From Acidobacteriota bacterium (GTDB lineage Bacteria > Acidobacteriota > Holophagae > Acanthopleuribacterales > Acanthopleuribacteraceae): a stretch of DNA of 64,000 nucleotides. Positions 711-54,422 of this stretch are shown here, one piece after another. Every line of letters begins with the position of its first letter. The first letter of the stretch is position 1. Location of the stretch: contig JAGQSC010000036.1 in assembly GCA_020439745.1 (NCBI GenBank), positions 124,001 through 188,000 of the forward strand. Reading direction: 5' to 3'. Below the pieces are notes generated by a model. The model had not been told where the DNA came from. It saw nothing but the letters and a program-made list of their open reading frames with translations, and did no database searches. A program made the translations under genes and the position numbers.

Positions 711-3641
711 TCAGTTGAAGAGTGGGAATTGACGCATGTTGAAGTTGTCATAAAAAAGGGTCATGCCGAAGAACTGTGGGGCAAACAGCGGGATTCCTTG
801 AGGCGAGGCTGTGATAAGGCCTGTCTCGCCAAGCGGGAACATGGACTGAATACGTACGGGACCATTTGGCCCCATCTCGACACAATGTGCGTAGGTAGAT
901 CTGCTGGAAAATGGCGTGGTCCAAATGGCAGTGGGAAGGAGCGGATGAAAATAGTCGATTTGCCCCCGTGCGTCCGTGCCCCAGGGTCTTGGACCCAACT
1001 CAGCCAATGCCTCGTCAAGGGCTTGCAACACAATGTCGTTTACATTCTGGGGCGCACCACCATCGGCATTCGAAAACCAGTCATAACGTATCTCGAGGGT
1101 GGTGCCACCCAATGCGTGCAACAGTACCTGAAAGGCCTGCACGCGGCTGAAGGACCCGAGTTCGTCGGCAAACGTCTTATTCAAAACGTTTTTCACCCAC
1201 AGATCAGATAAGATCCAGGAGTCATCGCGATTCTGGCCGAGAACCCAGTGAAGTGGACCGCCAGACACGAAATGGCCGTCCCAGACATTGAGTAGATTCA
1301 CCGCATTGACCCGCTCGGCCGTTGGGTTGCCGTCCACGATGTCACTAAACGCGCTTGATACGAACGACCAGATGTTGCCGCCACCCCCAAACGAGTCGGT
1401 GGTTGCGATCGTGATTGCTGTGTCGCGCACATCATCAAAACGCATCAAATCAAAGGATTCGAGATGTTCCTGAATGACATGGGCACGGTGGGCCGGGCCA
1501 AAAGCAAAACTACTTCCGAATGGCGCATTGTCGTAGCCTAAGCTCGCTTTGTTGTTCCAGCCACCATAATAGCCCTGCGCCGGATTGCTGTCGTGCGCTA
1601 TCTCCTTGCGCAGGGTATTGCTGTACTCAATCGGTGTCCCGAATGTGCCTTGCGGAAAGCGGAAATCTCCATTTGGCCGTACCGGATCTCGGCCCGACAT
1701 CCAGTAGGCAATGTTGCCTTCGCGGTCGGCATAACAAAAATGCTGGCTAACACCCACATCCGCGACCGCATCGCCGAAATCGTCCATGGACTCGGCACGC
1801 GCCATGTTGAGAAATGCGTTGACCGTGTCAAACTCAAAGCCCCAGTGTGCGTATTTCCAAGCGACGATAGGCGCCTGACTGACCACCGGTCCATGATTCG
1901 TGCGATATACGTCTAGAACCACGTCGTCGCCTCCGCGTACCTGGATGGTGGTTTGGTGGTGGGGTCCCCCGCTGAGAGCGGACGGTGGTTCAATATACAA
2001 GTCTGCGGTGTGGGCATGTCCCACCTGCATGGACCATGCATGGTGCGGTGTTCGACCAATAATGATGCCTGGGACGCCTGGAACGGACATGCCAGAAATT
2101 TCCAATCCACCCCCGCGAATGGAGCCTTCCACGCAAATGGCGGGCGCTGAAAATCCCATTTGTGGACCGGAATAAATCATGGGGTTGCCCGTATCAGTTT
2201 TATTACCTGAAACAACCCAAGCATAGCTGCCCATTTTCACTCGTGCATTGATGGCTTCCAGTTGGTGGTGGATGCGCGTACGGCGATCTCGCATATCGCC
2301 TGCAAGTTGACTGAAATCGATGTCATCTCGGAGCTCGCCCATTTGCCAAGCTGGCGTAAAGTCAGCACCTGCCTTAGTGGAGCTGTTGGAGGGGATCATG
2401 GTAGGCGCGTCCGGGTCATTAACGAAGTAGAAATCCTCGAACATGCTGCCCGCTGTAGCCGCAAAGTTGTCGTTCAGGTGTTGGTAAAAAGCAGCAGCTT
2501 CCATTTGACCGATTGCATAGTCGTTGGGATCGAATTCCCGTTGCAAAAAGGCTAACCAGGCCATGCAGTCGTGGACCGTCCAAGACTCGGGTTGGATCTC
2601 CACAGCAATATACTCGAAGGGGATCAGCGATGGTGTCGCTAACAACTCAGCGATCCGGCGATTGAATCCGTCCACGTAAGCTTTCATGACGGTCCGTGCA
2701 TCTGAATCCATATCGTCGAAGAATTGATCTAGTTCCTGATCGGTGTAGCCAACCGTTCGGGCTTGAATATCGCCTTCCACAAAATCGGAACCCAGTATAG
2801 CGGCCAGCGTGCCACGGGCAGATCTTCGGTAGAGATCCGCCTGCCACAAGCGGTCTGTGGCTACGTTATAGCCCATCATTTCAAAAACGTCATAGAGCGT
2901 ACCATCTTCAATAAACCACACACCCTGCGCATCTCGTCGGCTGGAAGCGGTTCCGGCCAAGTCGTAGGGGTTGGCCCACAAGAAACCTACTGGAGCACCA
3001 GGCGCTGTACCTCTGAGCGAGGTTATGGCCAGCGGTTGAGTGGCCGTTACTTCGAATTGAAGACCATCCTCTGGATCAAACTCTGATCCAGAAGGCGCAC
3101 CAATCACGTACAGGGTCTTACCCCATGAAGCCAATCCGGTGGCGATACGTTTTGTTTTGACCCGAACCCGATCTGCATCCAATTGAGTAACCCAAACGTC
3201 GGTTGCCGATGCGCCCGTATTCACCACGGCAATCCCGTCAAAGACCTCTTGCCAATCTCCCGTGAATAGTCGGATCCGCGTGCCCGTTTCATTCACTTCT
3301 GAAGCCTGTGCCGGGCTTCCTGGCCCTGAGGCATTGCGGTAACTTGCACTCACCTTGACGGCACCCTCTACAGAAAAATGCGATACCGAAGACGGGTCGG
3401 TGAACAAGTCACCAAGCGCCAAATGCTCAAGGGTCTGGCCTGCGACCTGATGCCGGACGGCCGCTCCCGGCGAACCACTTTCTGAATAGGGCTGCAATGT
3501 CACCTCAACCGTGTCCACATCTGCGTTTTCGAGAATGACCGTGGTCGTAAATCCGCCGTTGGGTCGTGTGACATGAGGTATGATTCTGGTTTGAGCCATC
3601 AGTGGAAGAACAAGCAACAACAGACAAGCATATCGCCACAT
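711..3641 (-). CDS. Secreted penicillin-acylase family hydrolase with an extra N-terminal module
   Basis: N-terminal nucleophile hydrolase of the penicillin/acyl-homoserine-lactone acylase family (S45), expected to cleave amide bonds outside the cytoplasm after self-processing. The start at 3641 follows AGGAGG seven bases upstream and opens a signal peptide (MWRYACLLLLVLPLMAQ). The open frame extends 30 codons further upstream but without such a site. Residues 18-230 form the module shared with the proteins at 40107-42254 and 51903-54422 (IIPHVT, VFDGIAVVN, LRGTAPG). The acylase part begins near residue 235 with DAQGVWFIEDGTLYDVF and DRLWQADLYRRSARG. The expected beta-chain nucleophile is Ser472 in MGSYAWVVSG. 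Total 976 residues. The substrate cannot be told. No coupled partner gene is seen. Confidence 0.88.
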   Translation of the reverse strand: MWRYACLLLLVLPLMAQTRIIPHVTRPNGGFTTTVILENADVDTVEVTLQPYSESGSPGAAVRHQVAGQTLEHLALGDLFTDPSSVSHFSVEGAVKVSASYRNASGPGSPAQASEVNETGTRIRLFTGDWQEVFDGIAVVNTGASATDVWVTQLDADRVRVKTKRIATGLASWGKTLYVIGAPSGSEFDPEDGLQFEVTATQPLAITSLRGTAPGAPVGFLWANPYDLAGTASSRRDAQGVWFIEDGTLYDVFEMMGYNVATDRLWQADLYRRSARGTLAAILGSDFVEGDIQARTVGYTDQELDQFFDDMDSDARTVMKAYVDGFNRRIAELLATPSLIPFEYIAVEIQPESWTVHDCMAWLAFLQREFDPNDYAIGQMEAAAFYQHLNDNFAATAGSMFEDFYFVNDPDAPTMIPSNSSTKAGADFTPAWQMGELRDDIDFSQLAGDMRDRRTRIHHQLEAINARVKMGSYAWVVSGNKTDTGNPMIYSGPQMGFSAPAICVEGSIRGGGLEISGMSVPGVPGIIIGRTPHHAWSMQVGHAHTADLYIEPPSALSGGPHHQTTIQVRGGDDVVLDVYRTNHGPVVSQAPIVAWKYAHWGFEFDTVNAFLNMARAESMDDFGDAVADVGVSQHFCYADREGNIAYWMSGRDPVRPNGDFRFPQGTFGTPIEYSNTLRKEIAHDSNPAQGYYGGWNNKASLGYDNAPFGSSFAFGPAHRAHVIQEHLESFDLMRFDDVRDTAITIATTDSFGGGGNIWSFVSSAFSDIVDGNPTAERVNAVNLLNVWDGHFVSGGPLHWVLGQNRDDSWILSDLWVKNVLNKTFADELGSFSRVQAFQVLLHALGGTTLEIRYDWFSNADGGAPQNVNDIVLQALDEALAELGPRPWGTDARGQIDYFHPLLPTAIWTTPFSSRSTYAHCVEMGPNGPVRIQSMFPLGETGLITASPQGIPLFAPQFFGMTLFYDNFNMRQFPLFN

Positions 3642-3718
3642 GGAAAAGCCTCCTGGTTTTTGGGAACGGGCCGAAAGTGAAACCATCATATCACTAGTCA
3701 CATTTCGATCGCGATAGG

Positions 3719-3752
3719 TTGACAGAGTCAAAATTTAGAATTATTCTAAATT
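3719..3752 (+). promoter_or_regulatory. Promoter with overlapping Fur/PerR-type operator
   Basis: A perfect TTGACA (3719-3724) is followed after 17 bp by TATTCT (3742-3747), a good sigma-70-type promoter. A perfect 21-bp palindrome (3732-3752; ten-base arms around the central T at 3742) covers the spacer and -10. Its core TTAGAATTATTCTAA matches the PerR-box pattern TTATAATNATTATAA in 13 of 15 positions. It lies just ahead of the Fur-family gene, so autoregulation is the simple reading. The acylase gene starts 90 bp away on the other strand and could share control. Confidence 0.82.
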
Positions 3753-36719: not shown

Positions 36720-39461
36720 CTATTTGATCTTCCCTAACGCGTTGTGGATTTCGTCGAGTAGGGGATGGTGTGGAAGCTTGCTCTCTAACAGGGTATGCGC
36801 TTTGGTGAGCAGGTGGCGGGCCTGTTCGTAATCTCCCCGTTGGGCTGAGACCTCAGCACTTAGAAACTGGGCTTGGGCGCGTTCCACGGTTCCAAGGACA
36901 TCCCATTCGAGTTGTTTCAGCACCTGTTCACAGGTATTCAAGTCGCCGTCGTGCAGGGCCGCTTCGGCCTGAATGAGTTGGGTTTTGGCTCTGTTTATAC
37001 CCGTTATTAATTCGGAAAATCGCTCTTCGTGCAGCGTTTCGAGGACCGGTGTCGCGTTCTGGTCCGTTCGCAGCATAGCTTTGGCTTTCAGCAGTAGTGC
37101 ATCGAAAAGGTAACGGAGGTGGGATTCGGCTTCGAACACGGGAATCGCTTCGCCCAACACCTCCATCGAACGGTCCATCTTTCCGGCTTGTTGCAGGGCA
37201 AAAGCGAGGTTCTTTTGGTCGAGCGCGGTATAGATGTTGGTTGCTCCGTAGTTGGTGCTGTTATACGCCACCACTTCCTCCAGCATCGGTATGGCGCGTT
37301 CTGTAATCCCGCAGTAGGCCAATTGTGCGGCCAAGTTGGCTTTGTAGATCACTGTGTAAGGGTGGTCTGCACCTAACTCGTCGAGATGTTTTTGGAAACA
37401 GGTCTCACCATACGGAATACTCTCAGCGAAGCGCTCCATTTTGTAAAGGGACACACTCAAATTGCCGGCCAGGATCCAGCAGGTGGGGTGATCTTCGCCA
37501 AGTGTTGACAGAGCACTTGCAAGGCATTGCTCCAGCAGACCAAGTGCCACTTGGTTGTGCCCCAGTTTCTCATGCGCGACTGCCAACAAGTTGGCCACTC
37601 GAACCCAACGCACGGATCCTTGCCCGAAGGCGGATTCGGTTTGGGCCAGGGCCCGATCTCCCATATCCAACACCTGTTGATGATGGCCCTGATTGATGAG
37701 CACACCCATCTTCACACTCATCGCGGTGGCCTGCAGTTGTGGGTCATCCGGTTGCGCATGCATCGCTTGGAACGCCTCCTCCACGAGCGATGCCGCATGT
37801 TCCAATTTCCCTTGATGCAAATACAAATCAGCCAACTCAACCTTGGCCCGGGGAATGAGGGCAGGCTCTTTTACTGCGATCACCTGGTGGTAGGCTACTT
37901 CGGCCTCCTTGTATTGGCCTTGCTTGAAACACAGCTGTCCTTCCAACAACGCCACTTGTGACGTTTGTTGAGCAGAAGGTGTTGGGATTTGGGACAACGC
38001 CCATTGCGCCTGTTTGAGCAAGTCCGATGCACGATCGTATTTACCGCGATTGGTTTCCACTCGGGTGAGTAATCCAGCCATGACCAACTGAAGATCAGGC
38101 TGTTCGCGAAACCGTGCCACCCAAAGGTCACGACCTCGGTCCAGGATATTGTCCAATTGTGGTTCTTTGGTTTGATAGGGATCGTCTGACTCGAACAAGT
38201 CCACCAGGAAGTCCATGGCAGCCGATGCTCTTTTGGATTCCCGCTCAATGCGAGCCGCGTTTTCGAGGATGATTTTTGATTGGTTTTTGAGCCTCAAGCC
38301 TTGCCAACCGGAAACCATTCCGGCGACCAAAACCATGAGCCATAAACCCATCACGACTACGGCGCTGCGATAATTGCGCTTCAACAATTTCAAGAGGTTG
38401 TCCATGGGACGACTCACAGCGTATTGCAGGGCACGCCCCTGCTGGAAACAGGTGAGATCGGTCATAAGAGCCTGAACTGTGGCATAACGATGTTTCGGGT
38501 CGGGCTGCAAGGCCAGGTTGATGATTCGGTCCAGGTCCCGCTTGAGGTGGGACGATCTAATCCCGGTAGTGATTTGCGATTGACTGGCCAGGGGAGCACC
38601 GCCCTCTAAGGCAACCAAGCGCGCGGAGGGGCTGGTTGTGGATGGGAAGGGCCGAGAACCCGTGAGCATTTCGAACAACACCAGACCAAGTGCGTAGACA
38701 TCCACAGCGGTGGTCAATGGCTCGCCCTTCAGTTGTTCCGGAGCGGCGTAGCCCACGGAAAAGGGACCCAAGGGAATTTGGGTCAGGCTTCCTTGTTGGG
38801 GTTCTTCTTCAATCAATTTGGCAACCCCAAAATCGAGGATCTTTGGCACATCGTTGGGTGTGACCAGGATGTTCTCCGGTTTGATATCGCGATGGATGAT
38901 CAGGTGCTGGTGCGCATAGGAAACCGCTTCGCAAATTTTCAGAAACAAACCCAAACGCTGGTCCAGCATGTGCGTCTGTTGGTTGAGCCACTCGCGCAAC
39001 GTCATTCCATGAATGCGTTCCATCACGAAGTAAGGGACATGGGTTTCTGGACTGAGGCCTGCATCGAACAAGGTGGCGATATAGGGGTGTTGACACTTGG
39101 CCAGGATTTGCTGTTCCAGCTCAAATCGCTTGCGCGTGACAGCAGAAGTGAGTCCGAGGTGTATCACCTTCACGGCAACTTCCTGCGTTGTGGTTCCCAC
39201 TTCTCGCGTGGCTTGATAGACCGAACCCATGCCACCTTGACCGATGAGTTCACCCATCTGGTAGCCCGGAATTTGGGGTGCCACTTCATGGATGGAAACG
39301 GGCGACAGCATGAAGTCCGATTCGTGGGCTCGCAACATGGACACAACCCAATCTCTTTGTGAGCGATCGGCTAGCTTCTCTTTGAGGAAAGCTTCTCGGG
39401 CCTCGGGTTCTAGTTCTAATGCTCGGAGGAAGGCTTCTTCGATTTCAGGCCATTGGTCCAT
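36720..39461 (-). CDS. Membrane Ser/Thr protein kinase with TPR-rich C-terminus
   Basis: 913 residues. The kinase domain (about 66-340) has the P-loop GQGGMGSVYQA, Lys98 in VAVKVI, HRDIKPEN with Asp192, and DFG at 210-212. One transmembrane helix at 366-386, then a predicted coiled stretch and about nine TPR units (420-910) that would lie outside the membrane. Such kinase-TPR proteins next to an ECF sigma factor are typical of Acidobacteriota and Planctomycetes; the kinase may control the sigma factor. The start overlaps the sigma gene by 17 bp. Confidence 0.93.
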   Translation of the reverse strand: MDQWPEIEEAFLRALELEPEAREAFLKEKLADRSQRDWVVSMLRAHESDFMLSPVSIHEVAPQIPGYQMGELIGQGGMGSVYQATREVGTTTQEVAVKVIHLGLTSAVTRKRFELEQQILAKCQHPYIATLFDAGLSPETHVPYFVMERIHGMTLREWLNQQTHMLDQRLGLFLKICEAVSYAHQHLIIHRDIKPENILVTPNDVPKILDFGVAKLIEEEPQQGSLTQIPLGPFSVGYAAPEQLKGEPLTTAVDVYALGLVLFEMLTGSRPFPSTTSPSARLVALEGGAPLASQSQITTGIRSSHLKRDLDRIINLALQPDPKHRYATVQALMTDLTCFQQGRALQYAVSRPMDNLLKLLKRNYRSAVVVMGLWLMVLVAGMVSGWQGLRLKNQSKIILENAARIERESKRASAAMDFLVDLFESDDPYQTKEPQLDNILDRGRDLWVARFREQPDLQLVMAGLLTRVETNRGKYDRASDLLKQAQWALSQIPTPSAQQTSQVALLEGQLCFKQGQYKEAEVAYHQVIAVKEPALIPRAKVELADLYLHQGKLEHAASLVEEAFQAMHAQPDDPQLQATAMSVKMGVLINQGHHQQVLDMGDRALAQTESAFGQGSVRWVRVANLLAVAHEKLGHNQVALGLLEQCLASALSTLGEDHPTCWILAGNLSVSLYKMERFAESIPYGETCFQKHLDELGADHPYTVIYKANLAAQLAYCGITERAIPMLEEVVAYNSTNYGATNIYTALDQKNLAFALQQAGKMDRSMEVLGEAIPVFEAESHLRYLFDALLLKAKAMLRTDQNATPVLETLHEERFSELITGINRAKTQLIQAEAALHDGDLNTCEQVLKQLEWDVLGTVERAQAQFLSAEVSAQRGDYEQARHLLTKAHTLLESKLPHHPLLDEIHNALGKIK

Positions 39462-40032
39462 GTGTCTTCCCTAGTTTCGCACCCAGCCAAGCGCGGCTGG
39501 TGGCCCAATGACGCCGTGCTGTCACCTCTGAATAGCCTTCGAATTCGGCGATCTCTTGAAAGGTGTATCCGCCAAAAAAGCGGTACTCCACCACCTGGTG
39601 GCCCATTTGATTAAAGTGTTTGAGGTCGTCCAAGACTTGGTCGATTTCCAACAGTTCCTCCCAATTCAGGGAACCCTGAGGTTGCGTGACTTGCACTTGG
39701 GAAAGTGGTTCGGGCTTTTGGCCGGCACCGCGTTTTTCGCGTTGCTTGGCTTTGGCGTGGTTGACCAGGATGCGCCGCATGACCATGGCAGCGATGCGAT
39801 AGAAGTGTTGGCGACTTTTGAAGCTGGCTTGTTTCTGGTTCACCAACACCAGGTAAGCCTCGTTCACCAGGGCCTGGGTATTCAGAGTGTGTTCGGTCGA
39901 TTCGCCCTTGAGCAAGGTTTTGGCGATGCGTGACAGGTAATCCGACACCAGGGGATAGACCTGGTCCAGGGCTTTCTTGGGGTCCTCGTCCCAATGGTTC
40001 AGCCATTGCGTCACAGTTTCTGGATCGCCCAC
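39445..40032 (-). CDS. ECF-type RNA polymerase sigma factor (TIGR02999-like)
   Basis: 195 residues. Region 2: LDQVYPLVSDYLSRIAKTLL and EAYLVLVNQKQASFKSRQHFYRIAAMVMRRILVNHAK (helices for core binding and -10 recognition); region 4: EYRFFGGYTFQEIAEFEGYSEVTARRHWATSRAWL. This fits the TIGR02999 (Acidobacteria-Planctomycetes) group, often paired with a protein kinase instead of a classical anti-sigma factor. That pairing holds here: the next gene, overlapping by 17 bp, is a kinase. Confidence 0.92.
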   Translation of the reverse strand: MGDPETVTQWLNHWDEDPKKALDQVYPLVSDYLSRIAKTLLKGESTEHTLNTQALVNEAYLVLVNQKQASFKSRQHFYRIAAMVMRRILVNHAKAKQREKRGAGQKPEPLSQVQVTQPQGSLNWEELLEIDQVLDDLKHFNQMGHQVVEYRFFGGYTFQEIAEFEGYSEVTARRHWATSRAWLGAKLGKTHGPMA

Positions 40033-40106: not shown

Positions 40107-42254
40107 TCAGAACGTAATAATGGCATCGATTCCGAATAGGGTCTGCTCCTGCTCTATGGCCGGTCCACCTTTGTCATTGATGGGTTGCCACGAAAAGGGC
40201 TGCAAGTGCACCCTGCCAATCGCACCGCAGTTCACCAGGATCGAGAGCGCTTTGCGAAAGGCGATGGCACTATCCAGGGAGAGATCCTGGGTGCCAATGA
40301 AATTGGAAACAAACACTTCTCTTCGTTTGGATGCTTGAACGGTGTCATAGAGCGAAATCTGATGGTCTTCCGGAATGGCGATGACACCGGTGCGGTCCAT
40401 GGTCAAGTGAGCAGGACGATTGAGTCCGTCCATAAGGAGGGATGTCAGCTGGGTTTGCGTATCGAATTTGACCAGCAGCCCATCACCAAAATCGCCGAGG
40501 AATAGGTTGCCTGAGTCGTCTGCACAAATCCCGAAGGGATCGGTGAACCCAGACGCCAACTCCATCGGCACCTCGTTCTTGATCTGAATCACGCGCCCGT
40601 CACCGCGGGTGGTAACCGCAATCCCCTGATCCAGGCCAAGTTGGGGTGCCATCCCTTTGGGAAAGGGGAGATTGTCTGCAAGCACCAGAGGCGTGCTGAG
40701 GCCTTGGGCGTCCGGTACCAGAGCTAGAATCCGCCCCATAGCTGTGTGTTCGGAGACCAACAAGATTCCGTCGTGAAACGCCAAACCTCCCGGCTTGGTC
40801 AAGTTGGCGACCACCGATTCCTGGCCTTGCGGGGTAATCGCAATCACCTGGTCGGACCCATTCTGACAGGCATAAAGCGTGCCTTCCTCAAAGCGCTGCG
40901 AACCGTTGTATTTGAGGACTGTTGAAGATTGAAATAGGACGCCGTTTTCTTCGCCGGGCCGTGTACCTCTTAACAGCATGGCCATGCTGGGCTGGCTACA
41001 TACCATGCGAATTTGTGAGCCGGGATTGTCCTGAAAAATGGCGTCAAGAACCAGCAGATACTTGGACTTGGGCGCTACAGTGGTAGTTAGTGTGCGTATT
41101 TCACTCGTTTCACCCTGGCTGTTTATTTGTACGGCACGGATGCTGGCTGTTTGATCTCCCAGATTGATTAGGGCTAGCCCATCGAAAACCCGGTCCCATT
41201 CGCCTTGGTACAAAACGTAGGATTCACGGGGTAATGCGCCAGAAATACCCGTCTCATGAACCTGCGCGGATGGCCCAAACCCGCTTTTTAGTCGATAACT
41301 TGCGGAGACGAAACAGTCATCCGGACCATCAATCACCACGTAGGCAGCGGTGTCCTCAAAAAATGATTGGGCCTCATCCATCAACAGGCCATTTGCTGGG
41401 ATTTCGATTTGGATAGAGTGGCCTACTTCACCTTCGCTTGTCACGGGTCGAAGGCTTAACATGGTGGGCGTATCGCCGAAATGGGTGAATGCCAGTTGGG
41501 TCTCATAAAGCGCTTCGACGGGCGTGATATGTGGCAGGATGCGCAGCGAACGGGGCACCTGCTGGGAATTGATGACATCGCATTCAAACAGTGTTCCCTC
41601 AGGTGCACCTGGGTAAGATCCGCGTAGCGACATCAGCCGAATGGGCTGGCTGGAATGGATGCGAAACTGGCTCTTGGGGATCTCGCTAAAGTGATCACCT
41701 AATACGAGCAGCTGTTTGTTCATGGGTGCAACCTGGAAACTTAGGCTGGCCTGAATAATGGAGTTGTTTGCTTGAACATGGGTGATCGTGATGTCCGCTG
41801 GCTGATCGCTGGTATTGACAATCGCCAGACCATCGAACACTAAGTCCCATTCCCCAGGGAATAGGGCGAACAGCTGTCCACTCTTGGCCGATTCCTGAAC
41901 CTGAGCGGTGGCGCCACCCGTTACCTGCCGGTAACCCACCGTCACCGTAATTAGTGGATGGCCATCAACCAGAAAATGGCTCACTTCCTGGCCGCCAAAG
42001 ACCTCGTCGGCCGACATTTTCAAGAAGGGTTGTCCCGAGATATCAAGGGTGGTGGGTTGAAGAGGTTCTCCATTTTGGGTATAAGGACGCAGTGTGATGG
42101 ACGTCTTAGCCCGAGTCACGTTGTTGCAAGTGATCTCGGTCAGAAACCCACCTCCGCTGCGGGTGACGTGGGGGATCATGCGTAGGTTGATCTGAGCCTG
42201 GCCAAGCCAGGACGTAAGCAGAATCGTTAGGATGGGTGTGAGTTTGCGGGTCAT
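40107..42254 (-). CDS. Secreted protein: two repeat modules plus propeller-like C-terminus
   Basis: 715 residues. Signal peptide MTRKLTPILTILLTSWLGQAQ; start at 42254 is six bases after GGAGGT (the frame is open further upstream without a ribosome site). Module one is residues 23-228 (LRMIPHVTRSGGGF, FPGEWDLVFDGLAIVN, SLRGSYPGAPEGTLF). Module two is 236-446 (LRILPHITP, YQGEWDRVFDGLALIN, LLRGTRPGEENGVLF). Residues 450-715 resemble an NHL/SMP-30-type beta-propeller: DQVIAITPQGQ, PGGLAFHDGILLVSEH, GICADDSGNLFLGDFG. Ligand and enzyme activity are unknown. It lies upstream of the ECF sigma gene on the same strand, 74 bp away. Confidence 0.82.
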   Translation of the reverse strand: MTRKLTPILTILLTSWLGQAQINLRMIPHVTRSGGGFLTEITCNNVTRAKTSITLRPYTQNGEPLQPTTLDISGQPFLKMSADEVFGGQEVSHFLVDGHPLITVTVGYRQVTGGATAQVQESAKSGQLFALFPGEWDLVFDGLAIVNTSDQPADITITHVQANNSIIQASLSFQVAPMNKQLLVLGDHFSEIPKSQFRIHSSQPIRLMSLRGSYPGAPEGTLFECDVINSQQVPRSLRILPHITPVEALYETQLAFTHFGDTPTMLSLRPVTSEGEVGHSIQIEIPANGLLMDEAQSFFEDTAAYVVIDGPDDCFVSASYRLKSGFGPSAQVHETGISGALPRESYVLYQGEWDRVFDGLALINLGDQTASIRAVQINSQGETSEIRTLTTTVAPKSKYLLVLDAIFQDNPGSQIRMVCSQPSMAMLLRGTRPGEENGVLFQSSTVLKYNGSQRFEEGTLYACQNGSDQVIAITPQGQESVVANLTKPGGLAFHDGILLVSEHTAMGRILALVPDAQGLSTPLVLADNLPFPKGMAPQLGLDQGIAVTTRGDGRVIQIKNEVPMELASGFTDPFGICADDSGNLFLGDFGDGLLVKFDTQTQLTSLLMDGLNRPAHLTMDRTGVIAIPEDHQISLYDTVQASKRREVFVSNFIGTQDLSLDSAIAFRKALSILVNCGAIGRVHLQPFSWQPINDKGGPAIEQEQTLFGIDAIITF

Positions 42255-42362
42255 AAGCGTACCTCCGGTTGGTCGTTGTTCTTTGACGCAACAAAACGAA
42301 GCAAAACCGATCAAAATAATGTTGGTTTCGTATTGATTTCCATGTGGCATAAGGCAGGGATT

Positions 42363-42776
42363 ATGTTGCGACAGGCGCAATCGTCAGATATTGAAGGCAT
42401 TCAACGCGTGAGACACGCGGTTCGCGAGAATCGTTTGATCTCGAGCGTGATCTCCGATGCCGAGGTTCTGGAAGCCATTGAGAAGACCGGTCGCGGCTGG
42501 GTGGTCGAGTCCGACGGCGAAGTTGTGGCTTTTGCCATCGGAAATCGCATGACTGGCAACGTGTGGGCCCTTTTCGTGGATCCCGAACACGAAAGCCGTG
42601 GGTATGGGCGCGCGCTGCATGATGCCATGGTGGCCTGGTTATGGTCCCAAGGAATGACCAAACTGTGGTTGACAACCGATCCTGGCACCCGTGCACAGCA
42701 GTTTTACGAACGCGCTGGCTGGCAATTGGTGGGACTTACCCAAAGAGGTGAAGTGCGTTATGAACGCTACCGATGA
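42363..42776 (+). CDS. GNAT family N-acetyltransferase
   Basis: 137 residues. The acetyl-CoA motif A reads VWALFVDPEHESRGYGRALHDAMVAW, with the R/Q-x-x-G-x-G/A signature; motif B ends with AQQFYERAGWQLVG. An N-terminal RQAQSSDIEGIQRVRHAV is usual for the family. The amine substrate is unknown. ATG 42363 is favoured for AGGCAGGG just upstream; earlier in-frame starts at 42276 and 42342 lack one. Divergent from the module-protein gene. Confidence 0.88.
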   Translation: MLRQAQSSDIEGIQRVRHAVRENRLISSVISDAEVLEAIEKTGRGWVVESDGEVVAFAIGNRMTGNVWALFVDPEHESRGYGRALHDAMVAWLWSQGMTKLWLTTDPGTRAQQFYERAGWQLVGLTQRGEVRYERYR

Positions 42777-49856: not shown

Positions 49857-51860
49857 TTAGCGCATGATGTGGAGGGGGCTGGCTTTTTCGTCCGTCCAAG
49901 TGACGCGTTTTTCGCCTGGGCTCTTTGCGTATCTCTGAAGCTCCAAGAAGCGGATGAGTCCTCTGTTTTCGGATATCGTGATCCAGGTGGCATCTAGGAC
50001 AAGACGGTCCTCGTCCCCTGGTGAGTCAACGAAAGCAGTGTGGAATCCTACTTGGTCGGCATGGGCCTGCATCACCGGGGCGAGATCCAGGTAGCGGTTA
50101 CTGATATTGCAGACGATGGCGCCATTGGGCTTTACGTGCTTCAAGTACACCTCAAAGGCCTCACGCGTGAGTAGGTGCACGGGGATGCTGCCCCCCGAGA
50201 ATGCGTCCAATACCAGGATGTCAAATTCACGAGGCGCCTCTTGAGCGAGTGAGAGCCGACCATCGCCGAGGACTACCTCCAGTTTCGAAAGGCAATCTCG
50301 CAAATAGGTAAAGTGTGATTGGGCCAGGGCGTACACATCAGGGTCGATTTCGTAGATGCGGATCTCATCTGCAGCGCGACCATAGGCGGCCAATGTTCCC
50401 ACACCCAGACCTACGACGCCGATACGCAGACTTTGGCGGTGCTTTTTCAGGTATCGGAATGATTGGGCAACACCTGAGTCTTCGCCATAATAACTCACCG
50501 CTTGTCGGCTTCGTGTCTCGTCACTGTATTGCATTCCGTGATACACGGCTCCATGACTGAGGGCGAGGTAGTGATCTTGTCCCTCTCCATTCTCTTCCAC
50601 ACTGAGGACGCCGTAGAAGTTACGCTTCATCGCAATGTTGCCGTTGTATTTGAAACTAATATCTTCAACCAACACCAGTAACAATGCACCACACCACAGG
50701 CACAAGAGGGTCCAGGCCCAACGGGTTCTTGCGAGGAATTGAGTCGGCTTGCGAATGGCAAGCCATAGCATGAGGATGCAGAAGGCTACGATCCCCAAAT
50801 CGAGATCGAGAAAGCTATTGAATATGGCTGGCGCGATCAACCCTACGAACAGACCACCGAACACACCGCCACAAGCGATGGCCAAATAGAAGGCGGAGAG
50901 ACCCTGAGCTGGCGGTTTGATACGTACCAATTCGCCGTGGCACATCATGCATGCAAAGAATAGGAGCGCGCACGATAGGGCGATCTGGTAGGCCACGGGC
51001 CACAGCGCACCGAAGTACAGCCTATATCCGAGAATAGTGAGGCAGATAAGGGAACCTGCCGCGAAGACGGGCGCGTGGTACCAGCGTCGGCGATCAAAGC
51101 AGAGTACGAAGCTCAAGAGATAAAGCGATAGGGGTAACACCCACAGAAAGGGGAATACGGCCAGCTCTTGGGTGATTTGGTGGGTGATTGCCAGCAACAG
51201 TAAGGACGACATGGCAGGCAGAGCAAACCAGAGGAGTTGTGGTTTTTCATGATGGTCTTGGGTAGGTGAAGGTTGGGGATTGTGGGATCGCGAGATCCAA
51301 GCACAAGCCAGACAAGTTACGGCAAACAGGACAAAGCCAATGCTCCACAAATCGCTCTGTTGTTGTCTGTTGAAGCTTGGCTCGAACCAAAAAGGATAAG
51401 TCATCAATCCCAGCAGCGAACCCAGGTTTGAGAGCGCATAGAGCGGGTAAGGTGACCGATCAGGGTAACGATTGTGAAACCAAGTCTGCAGTAATGGGCC
51501 GGTGGTGCTGAGCACGAAGTAGGGAAGACCGACCGTCGTGAGCAGAAGCCAAAACACGGCCAGGGAGGGGTTTTGCCATGGGTCAGGTTGCCCGCTGGCC
51601 GATGGTGTAATGGGCAGCGATGCAATGGCAATGATTAGGAGCAAGGAATGAAGCGCCACCTGCTTTCTTGGCCCCAAGCGTTGCGTCAACCCATGGGAAT
51701 ACCCGTATCCAGCCAGCAAGAATGCCTGAAAAAACAGCAGACATATGGTCCACATGGCTGGGGCACCGCCGAACCAAGGCAATATGAACTTGGCAATCAG
51801 CGGTTGCACCTGGAACAAGAGGAACGCGCTCAGAAAGACAGCAATGTGGAACAGTGCCAT
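49857..51860 (-). CDS. Fused membrane / spermidine-synthase-like methyltransferase-fold protein
   Basis: 667 residues. About eleven transmembrane helices (1-410, starting FHIAVFLSAFLLFQVQPLIAKFILP) are followed by a Rossmann-type SpeE-like domain (430-667) with VVGLGVGTLAAYG, IYEIDPDVYALA, VLGDGRLSLA and DILVLDAFSGGSIPVHLLT. This fused spermidine-synthase architecture is widespread; aminopropyl transfer has not been shown for most members. Start ATG at 51860, 42 bp after the module protein gene on the same strand. Confidence 0.88.
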   Translation of the reverse strand: MALFHIAVFLSAFLLFQVQPLIAKFILPWFGGAPAMWTICLLFFQAFLLAGYGYSHGLTQRLGPRKQVALHSLLLIIAIASLPITPSASGQPDPWQNPSLAVFWLLLTTVGLPYFVLSTTGPLLQTWFHNRYPDRSPYPLYALSNLGSLLGLMTYPFWFEPSFNRQQQSDLWSIGFVLFAVTCLACAWISRSHNPQPSPTQDHHEKPQLLWFALPAMSSLLLLAITHQITQELAVFPFLWVLPLSLYLLSFVLCFDRRRWYHAPVFAAGSLICLTILGYRLYFGALWPVAYQIALSCALLFFACMMCHGELVRIKPPAQGLSAFYLAIACGGVFGGLFVGLIAPAIFNSFLDLDLGIVAFCILMLWLAIRKPTQFLARTRWAWTLLCLWCGALLLVLVEDISFKYNGNIAMKRNFYGVLSVEENGEGQDHYLALSHGAVYHGMQYSDETRSRQAVSYYGEDSGVAQSFRYLKKHRQSLRIGVVGLGVGTLAAYGRAADEIRIYEIDPDVYALAQSHFTYLRDCLSKLEVVLGDGRLSLAQEAPREFDILVLDAFSGGSIPVHLLTREAFEVYLKHVKPNGAIVCNISNRYLDLAPVMQAHADQVGFHTAFVDSPGDEDRLVLDATWITISENRGLIRFLELQRYAKSPGEKRVTWTDEKASPLHIMR

Positions 51861-51902: not shown

Positions 51903-54422
51903 TTATTCCTGGATAAATCCCTCCAACAGCGGTTCATCCACCGGTGGCAAAATGTCCATGGCCCAATCACCGCCTTGCAGCCCGAAGTCACCTTTGTGAG
52001 CGTAGGCCGTGACGCGGTATTTGGGATTTGCGACTTCAATCTCGTCCGCGGGAATCGTGTACTGGATCAAGCTGCCATCTATCACCGCGGTTGCGTTGCT
52101 CTGATAGGTGGTGATCACACTGTTCGTGGCGTCGCGAACCTTGAGGGACCAGCCACCGGACGGTGTGTATTCCAGGGAATACCAGCGATCGGTGCCCTGA
52201 TAGAGATCACCGGGGAATTGGGGTCCAGGTTGATAGTTATTGTTGGGATTGCCGTCCTGATCCAGCACGAGTCCGTACTGATAGTGCCAAACGGGGTCGT
52301 TCATAGGGATGTCAGCTTGCATCTCGTGGAAGAAGACGAACATTTCGCCTGCCGCCTTTTTGTCCGTGCGTGGGTTGTCGGCTTTGACCACCAACCCGGA
52401 GTTAGTTTTAAGCGGGACTTCCACAATGAATGGCACGAGATCAGAAGAATTGGTCTGAGGATTGTCGCCGTCCTCATCTTCTGTGTCGTCCACGCTGTTT
52501 TTGTTATATCGTTTCCCGCCGCGCTTACCTTTTTTCTGAACTTCACGCTTCAATTTGGGTGACTTGCCTTTTTTTCGTTTGTTCAGGAGCGACTGGCTTT
52601 TGGAAGTATCTTCGCCCAGAACCGTGTTTTCGATGGCGATCATGGTGGATTCGCCGACAAACAAAACGGGTGAAAGCGTTTGGCTCTTGAGGATTTGCCC
52701 GTCCTGTGAGAATTCCACTTGATAAACAGGTTGTTTTTCATAGTCGCGGTCCATCTCTGCTGTGAGCGGTGCATGAATATCTGCCGTGCTCCCGCCGTTG
52801 GCCGGAACATGTACCTGGCGCGTGACGGGCTCGTCTTCCGAGGGAAATCCGCCCACAAGTTCTTTGATCACGATATCGATGGTCGCGTCACTCGACGTAT
52901 TGTTGGCGATTTCAATCGATGCAATCGCCTCGGTGGTTTCGGTGCCCACCGGTGCACGATAAGTGAAATAGGATTCGTAGGCTGGAGAAATCCAAAAGGG
53001 ACCATTCGGGTCATCACAATAAGGATTGGACGTGATGTCGGGCGTAGAAATGGGGATGGCCTTGTTTTCCCACAGAACACCGATATCGGCTCCGGGCACC
53101 GTACCCCTTAATGGAACGATCGTGGAGGAAATCGGCGCGAGGATGATGAAGTAACTGGAGGGGTCTGATTCAAACGGCGTACCGCCATTTGGGCCACCCA
53201 ACACATAGAGTCCCTTTTCGAAGGGTTGAATTTGATTCAATGCCCTCACACATGCCAGTTTCTCGTTTTGTGGTCCGTTAATTCGGTATTGTTGAATGTA
53301 AACGTCGGTGGGGAACAGACCCAAGTTCACGATGGCAATTCCGTCAAACACATAGTCCCAGTTACCTGAGTAGACCAGCCATACATTGCCAAAACTGTTG
53401 TCGGCGCTTACATGGGCGGGACTGCTGATGCCAGAAGTGGCTACATAAGCCGCCGTTAACGACATATCAGAAGAGGGTCGGTCGATCACTAGGTGTGAGG
53501 CATTGGTCACACCCAGGAGTGTCTCGGGGGCAAATGAAAGCACGGAACCGGCGTTCAGACTGGCGGTTCGTGTGGCGAGCTGCATGCCAGATCGGTCATA
53601 GGGTGTCAGATCGAACGTCACCTTGGCGCGCGATGTGTTCTCAATCAGAATCTGTGTTTCGTAACCACCTGCTGCGCTGGTGAAATGACTGGCGATGTAG
53701 GTCTCATAGGATGTAGATGAGGCTGTATTCGTGCTGTTTTCCCACAGGTATCCGATCTCGCTGCCCGGCGGTGTGCCGCGTAGGGCAATCAACGCGGTAG
53801 GCTGGGTGGTTTCAATGTCAAATGTAGTGCCCTCAGGGTCGCCAAAGGAACTTCCGGCCGGGGCCCCGAGCACGTAAAGACCCTTGGCATTGGGTGCTAG
53901 TCCCGTAATGGCGGTAAGTTCATTGATGGTCGAACCCGAGGAACTCTTCTGGCGAACGGTGACGTCTGTGGCTGCGTTCCCCAAATTGACGATGGCGAAT
54001 CCATCAAAAACCACGTCCCAATTGCCGGGAAACACGCGCCACAAGGTTTTGCTCTCACTTGATTCAGTCAGATGTGCCGGGCTTCCATTCCCAGTATTGG
54101 TGGCGTAGGCCACACTGACGACTAGGTTGTTGTTGTCGGAACTCACTTTGAAATGCGAGATGTCCGTTCGGCCAAACAGCGTTTCGATGTCAAAGCGGAC
54201 CGCAGATTTGGCACCCACGCGTCCACTTACAGCGCCGAGCGCCATACCGTTGTTCAGGTAAGGCGTCAACGAATAGGATTGTTCCGAAGCGGCGTCATTG
54301 TGAATGAGAACGGCCGTTTCGAAACCCCCGGCGGGATTGGTGACGTGAGAAATGATCCGTGTCTGTCCGAAAAGAGCAACAGAAAAAAATACAGCCGTCG
54401 CGAAGGCGATATGACGTCGCAT
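51903..54422 (-). CDS. Secreted protein: two repeat modules plus unknown C-terminus with basic patch
   Basis: 839 residues. Signal peptide (RRHIAFATAVFFSVALFGQ), start preceded by GGAGGA. Module one is 21-229 (RIISHVTNPAGGFET, FPGNWDVVFDGFAIVN, LRGTPPGSEIGYLWEN). Module two is 240-453 (YIASHFTSAAGGYET, YSGNWDYVFDGIAIVN, LRGTVPGADIGVLWEN). Residues 470-839 are unrecognised. Within them 605-640 is extremely Lys/Arg rich (NKRKKGKSPKLKRE and KKGKRGGKRYNKN), at once followed by an acidic stretch TEDEDGD. The C-terminus is strand-like (WHYQYGLVLDQDGNPN, WSLKVRDATNSVI). Codon use is like its neighbours. Function unknown. Confidence 0.82.
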   Translation of the reverse strand: MRRHIAFATAVFFSVALFGQTRIISHVTNPAGGFETAVLIHNDAASEQSYSLTPYLNNGMALGAVSGRVGAKSAVRFDIETLFGRTDISHFKVSSDNNNLVVSVAYATNTGNGSPAHLTESSESKTLWRVFPGNWDVVFDGFAIVNLGNAATDVTVRQKSSSGSTINELTAITGLAPNAKGLYVLGAPAGSSFGDPEGTTFDIETTQPTALIALRGTPPGSEIGYLWENSTNTASSTSYETYIASHFTSAAGGYETQILIENTSRAKVTFDLTPYDRSGMQLATRTASLNAGSVLSFAPETLLGVTNASHLVIDRPSSDMSLTAAYVATSGISSPAHVSADNSFGNVWLVYSGNWDYVFDGIAIVNLGLFPTDVYIQQYRINGPQNEKLACVRALNQIQPFEKGLYVLGGPNGGTPFESDPSSYFIILAPISSTIVPLRGTVPGADIGVLWENKAIPISTPDITSNPYCDDPNGPFWISPAYESYFTYRAPVGTETTEAIASIEIANNTSSDATIDIVIKELVGGFPSEDEPVTRQVHVPANGGSTADIHAPLTAEMDRDYEKQPVYQVEFSQDGQILKSQTLSPVLFVGESTMIAIENTVLGEDTSKSQSLLNKRKKGKSPKLKREVQKKGKRGGKRYNKNSVDDTEDEDGDNPQTNSSDLVPFIVEVPLKTNSGLVVKADNPRTDKKAAGEMFVFFHEMQADIPMNDPVWHYQYGLVLDQDGNPNNNYQPGPQFPGDLYQGTDRWYSLEYTPSGGWSLKVRDATNSVITTYQSNATAVIDGSLIQYTIPADEIEVANPKYRVTAYAHKGDFGLQGGDWAMDILPPVDEPLLEGFIQE

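Follow-up and report, generated by a model that had tools for sequence, protein, structure and literature searches.

Within the 64-kb window (the whole stretch of DNA analyzed here), three proteins with dissimilar C-terminal parts share a segment of about 205 residues, and the questions raised by this locus are what this segment is, where it comes from, and what it does for its hosts. A preliminary description had counted five copies in three proteins, and this count is borne out. All five lie on the minus strand, each no more than 15 bases from the positions originally given, and BLASTP aligns every pair from end to end (E 7e-18 to 1e-52). In a multiple alignment, the pairwise identities of the five copies are 28–42% and 28 columns are invariant; the strength of the matches is far above chance, which indicates that the copies are homologous. 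The order of motifs first described for them (PHVT..GGF.T, SHF.V, F.GEWD.VFDG.A.VN, L.VLG, and QP...LRG..PG) is likewise present and recurs in 24 copies from the same genome. A profile search of all six frames of the whole 64-kb window found no sixth copy.

Anatomy of the module

The repeat itself stands as originally described, but what had been taken for one unit of ~205 residues is a tandem pair of ~100-aa domains. Half 1 (approximately residues 1–104) and half 2 (approximately 105–206) match each other in HHalign with E 5e-10 and a probability of 96.6, the Asn of one half falling upon the Asn of the other. The module is an internal duplication of a ~100-aa beta-sandwich domain, and the homology of its two halves rules out a single novel domain. 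This dyad is the arrangement of every full-length copy, and two successive dyads are carried by proteins B and C of the window as well as by L031, L034, and L038. The features of the window are listed below, with the signal peptides judged by hydropathy and by eye.

711-3731, minus strand: host protein A, with a signal peptide, a dyad, and a penicillin-amidase (Ntn hydrolase) domain (ORF, Pfam)
2967-3593, minus strand: module A1, a dyad of the acylase protein A, directly behind the signal peptide (HMM and BLASTP)
3288-3593 and 2967-3287, minus strand: halves 1 and 2 of A1
40107-42380, minus strand: host protein B, with a signal peptide, two dyads, and a C-terminal ScyE/NHL-like propeller
41574-42188, minus strand: module B1, a dyad of the propeller protein B (HMM and BLASTP)
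41883-42188 and approximately 41577-41882, minus strand: halves 1 and 2 of B1
40923-41549, minus strand: module B2, a dyad of the propeller protein B (HMM and BLASTP)
Approximately 41232-41549 and 40923-41231, minus strand: halves 1 and 2 of B2
51903-54422, minus strand: host protein C, 839 residues, with a signal peptide, two dyads, and an unrecognized C-terminus
53733-54365, minus strand: module C1, a dyad of the 839-residue protein C (HMM and BLASTP)
54054-54365 and 53733-54053, minus strand: halves 1 and 2 of C1
53061-53708, minus strand: module C2, a dyad of the 839-residue protein C (HMM and BLASTP)
Approximately 53394-53705 and 53061-53393, minus strand: halves 1 and 2 of C2

The C-terminal partners differ, as had been claimed: protein A matches PF01804 (Penicil_amidase) with E 4e-98, the propeller of protein B is matched weakly by the NCBIfam model NF033206 (E 1e-6, under the model's own cut-off), and protein C has no Pfam or NCBIfam match anywhere. 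The last ~159 residues of protein C (51903-52400) are 46.5% identical (BLASTP E 2e-38) to the C-terminus of L031 (2823-3300), a dyad protein with a caspase domain that is encoded at another place in the host genome, and the two have this unrecognized C-terminal domain in common. Adjoining protein C at 49857-51860 is a 667-aa membrane protein, whose C-terminal part looks spermidine-synthase-like by eye. Downstream of protein B on the same strand, positions 36720-40032 encode a Ser/Thr kinase-like protein, whose C-terminal part is a repeat region, together with a 195-aa ORF that overlaps it; by eye, the two are a candidate pairing of a kinase and an ECF-type sigma factor.

For a window copy, an AF2 model built from five sequences was mediocre (model 1, pLDDT 73), and a model built from ten sequences for L096 was good (model 2, pLDDT 88.8, pTM 0.84). 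The latter is a copy from the MAG "Holophagae bacterium OFTM365" that is 30–44% identical to the window copies, and each half of its model has eight strands when the long strand 176–192 is taken as two. Residue conservation was counted over 42 copies. Half 1 keeps His7 (42/42), Asn23 (39/42), and His71 (37/42), together with Phe15, Gly40, and Tyr86. In half 2, conservation centers upon an FDGxAxVN strand, in which G121 and N126 are invariant (42/42 each), D120 is found in 41/42 copies, and the preceding position 119 is aromatic (F/W) in 40/42; this half also keeps Lys160 (42/42) and Arg191 (34/42). These patterns indicate that the two halves are not interchangeable, as each keeps its own residue set.

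Probable relationship to the ASRAH superfamily

The segment had been considered an unnamed module and a candidate for something undescribed. This holds insofar as no Pfam or NCBIfam model reports the module in the five window copies, where only the partners are recognized; it does not hold insofar as both halves are closest to ASRT (PF07100) and DUF5719 (PF18986) of the ASRAH superfamily, which is defined by this fold, a near-absolute Asn that closes strand 2, and a well-conserved Trp where strand 1 begins (De Souza, Iyer and Aravind 2009, PMC2739507). In the literature, a search on DUF5719 brought up nothing, and the term "ASRAH domain" appears in one paper only. When 24 members of the module family were scanned against Pfam, DUF5719 was matched by 9 (best E 3.4e-5) and ASRT by 3 (best E 0.007), while the remaining families, such as Big_1 and PLipase_C_C, received one or two weak matches each. 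The ASRT gathering score of 25 bits was missed (best member 16.7 bits), as was that of DUF5719 by all natural sequences (best 25.4 bits against 26.2). The preliminary description had named a strong profile match covering all five copies as evidence against a new domain. No such match was obtained outright, since the window copies lie below every Pfam cut-off, and solely the half-1 family consensus, a synthetic sequence, reaches that of DUF5719 (E 4.3e-6, 26.5 bits against 26.2). The same consensus matches ASRT with E 0.003 and 17.9 bits over most of the profile; the half-2 consensus found nothing in Pfam. By sequence, there were no solved structures to be found with the window alignment, nor any credible ones with 24 copies.

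Profile-profile comparisons were also made, with HHalign E-values here being those of single comparisons picked after a Foldseek lead rather than of a database search. Against a profile of five ASRT sequences, half 1 scored E 5e-4 and half 2 E 2e-4, both above 60 block shuffles. L104, a 740-aa Acidobacteriota protein with four repeats, scores above the Pfam cut-offs of DUF5719 and of ASRT alike, and these two families are therefore related to each other; the locus (679-2898) encodes a secreted protein in which a tetrad of ASRAH repeats is accompanied by TIG. Against the ASRT sequences and L104 repeats together, half 1 reached E 8e-7 (score 39; 40 shuffles at most 19) and half 2 reached E 3.7e-6 (score 37; 40 shuffles at most 18). 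Half 1 also matches L104 itself (E 1.4e-7), a match that is not independent, as L104 joined the set through ASRT. Nine unrelated control domains scored 8–18 and single ASRT sequences mostly 23–27; IPT/TIG, PKD, Ig, MAM, PA, and the other controls were rejected as relatives, their scores being at noise level.

The alignment also sets the conserved strand of half 2 against the pocket motif of ASRT. FDGxA aligns without gaps to the HExxC of ASRT (F-D-G-F-A-I-V-N over H-E-T-A-C-I-L-N), such that F119 and A123 fall on the ASRT His and Cys positions, which in TM1070 contact a bound diol (PMC2739507). The SHEshChhN signature of ASRT is absent, with [VI]FDGxAxVN in half 2 and GGFxTxxxxxN in half 1 instead. 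The Asn characteristic of ASRAH corresponds to N23 and N126, at the ends of strands 15–23 and 119–126 of the L096 model. The strand-1 tryptophan occurs in 20/42 first halves (otherwise I, M, or L) and 9/42 second halves (F in 21), and none of the five first halves of the window has it. Foldseek searches of the PDB gave ASRT and 1NC7 (TM1070) as the top matches of the weaker model 1, with a probability of 1.00; for the better model 2, neither was among the top 50. The top matches of model 2 are two-domain beta chains with an rmsd of ≥13 Å and no real superposition, and for this reason its search says little either way.

It is conceivable that the module is an unrelated Ig-like fold that resembles ASRAH by convergence, as generic beta-sandwich families (Big_1, PLipase_C_C) also match it weakly and the Foldseek result for the better model favors neither side. 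We consider this improbable: the profile-profile scores double any shuffle and exceed those of nine unrelated domains, Asn is in register with Asn, and a bridging protein over both Pfam cut-offs is matched by half 1, albeit one chosen through ASRT. From the sequence comparisons, descent of the module from the ASRAH superfamily is quite likely, and it is filed here as a probable divergent ASRAH dyad, rather than as ASRT or DUF5719 as Pfam defines them. The dyad is less isolated than the preliminary description held; what is striking is its copy number and its range of partners.

Copy number, partners, and distribution

The five window copies represent a minority of those in the host genome (5.1 Mb), in which a five-row profile found 42 matches at E≤0.01, with at least 24 full-length strong copies (E<1e-20) in 19 secreted proteins. 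Pfam partners include acylase, PNGase F, sortilin/BNR propeller, caspase, a PD40 propeller with GH114, GSDH, DM13, YHYH, and a Cu-monooxygenase with cytochrome, in addition to LRR and PKD for weaker copies. Endonuclease I is a dyad partner in the MAG Acidobacteriota MO_135.B14. Most hosts have either their first module starting only a few residues from where the signal peptide is predicted to end or their last module at the very end of the protein, while L033 and L041 encode secreted proteins of 240–250 aa consisting of a signal peptide and one dyad only. Such unrelated partners, together with N-terminal, C-terminal, and stand-alone placements, agree with the earlier suggestion of a mobile secreted module. 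Among other proteins of note is the 1107-aa dyad protein of L036 (5111-8431): its body, a region of >400 residues that is duplicated with close similarity, has no Pfam match. Weaker relatives from the same genome (L049, L051, L053, and L055–L057) are single repeats ~105 residues apart in large secreted proteins, and are apparently longer ASRAH-like arrays.

In a search of 61 related genomes, all seven genomes of the family Acanthopleuribacteraceae had between 29 and 56 matches, those in a second family of the class were weaker, and the profile matched 0/45 genomes of a third. Of 199 genomes sampled across the phylum, 31 had matches, mostly weak and often of half-length only, with strong copies in one further family (f11). 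A search with a four-row alignment found only three loci, spread over two named MAGs. The tree of the 42 copies has the shape of a star, its end branches being long, and in several fusions, among them L038, L098, and L077, the first modules of different genera group together, as do the second modules. The expansion of the module is therefore old and those fusions inherited, and the same observations rule out recent duplication of the window copies. A phage origin was rejected, as no relative was present among viral contigs. The Acanthopleuribacteraceae genome paper makes no mention of Ig-like domains, secretion systems, or adhesins.

Dozens of secreted proteins carrying a family-wide module, which another family of the same class is without, might suggest a sorting or export tag for a dedicated secretion or surface-anchoring machine, in a role like that of the T9SS C-terminal domains. 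We regard this as highly improbable, as known sorting tags keep to one end of the protein, whereas the dyad lies directly behind the signal peptide in many hosts and is C-terminal in others.

Putative role and comparison with known systems

A homologous, internally duplicated module accompanies many different secreted partners. Whether it can further be described as a tandem ASRAH-type dyad that was multiplied in one Acidobacteriota lineage and fused to secreted proteins as a putative attachment part is a matter on which our confidence is evenly balanced. The main rival to attachment is a plain Ig-like spacer or folding aid, which would hold the catalytic part off the membrane or shield it without any specific ligand. 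Beta-sandwich repeats often serve in this way, and both the great diversity of partners and the large sequence drift between copies (28–42% identity) speak for one. However, a spacer usually keeps core residues only, whereas His7, Lys160, Asp120, His71, and Arg191 are each retained in 34 to 42 of the 42 copies, with different polar residues kept in each half, and the stand-alone secreted dyads L033 and L041 are left unexplained. A simple spacer is consequently rather unlikely in our estimation.

If the attachment reading is correct, the dyad would serve as a docking part on each secreted enzyme. In half 2, the face of strand 2 (F/W-D-G-x-A, where ASRT has its pocket) would be offered to the ligand, perhaps together with the invariant K160, and half 1 would complete the cleft. 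The ligand would most likely be a glycan of the bacterium's own cell surface or matrix, and enzymes would thereby be kept near the cell or matrix, much as carbohydrate-binding modules tether enzymes to their substrates. Since the partners have no common substrate, a ligand shared by all of them, belonging to the cell itself or its matrix, is more likely than targeting to substrates. Sugar binding by ASRAH domains is itself a contextual prediction (PMC2739507), and Anabaena ASRT (Anabaena sensory rhodopsin transducer) has been studied as a DNA-looping protein (PMC8660804). We favor glycan attachment as the putative role tentatively, with slightly less than even confidence. The more specific proposal, that the asymmetric dyad (invariant His7, Lys160, and Asn126, near-invariant Asp120) might be a lineage-wide docking device for one common surface or matrix ligand, usable at either protein end, is speculative and rather unlikely. 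The module, which Pfam and NCBIfam overlook in at least 19 secreted proteins from a single genome, now has a name and specific residues. Should it be an attachment module, it would tell where the hydrolases of these animal-associated bacteria are kept, and the little-studied ASRAH superfamily gains a large set for examining its predicted sugar binding.

Among known systems, the closest parallels are the secreted ASRAH branches, namely the amidase-linked tetrads of Chloroflexi and the dyad lipoproteins of actinobacteria (PMC2739507). Like the module, these are secreted, ~100-aa eight-stranded beta-sandwiches arranged as dyads or tetrads and fused to enzymes, with an Asn closing strand 2 and their own residues replacing the ASRT His/Cys pocket. 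The module is distinguished by other partners, its presence in Acidobacteriota, a weakly kept Trp, an asymmetric dyad that has invariant residues of its own, copy numbers in the dozens for each genome, and both N- and C-terminal placement. DUF5719 is the best Pfam match of most members, and its profile apparently spans more than one ASRAH-like repeat, as matches fall at 60–130, 173–249, and 265–312; however, it leaves the window copies unmatched. ASRT/TM1070 (PDB 2II7, 1NC7), the second-best Pfam match, shares the register and was the Foldseek match of model 1, yet these proteins are solo, intracellular, and possess the SHEshChhN pocket signature. Carbohydrate-binding modules offer a proposed functional likeness, as non-catalytic beta-sandwiches that hold an enzyme near a glycan, although no sequence relationship to them was seen and most partners of the module do not share a single polysaccharide on which they act.
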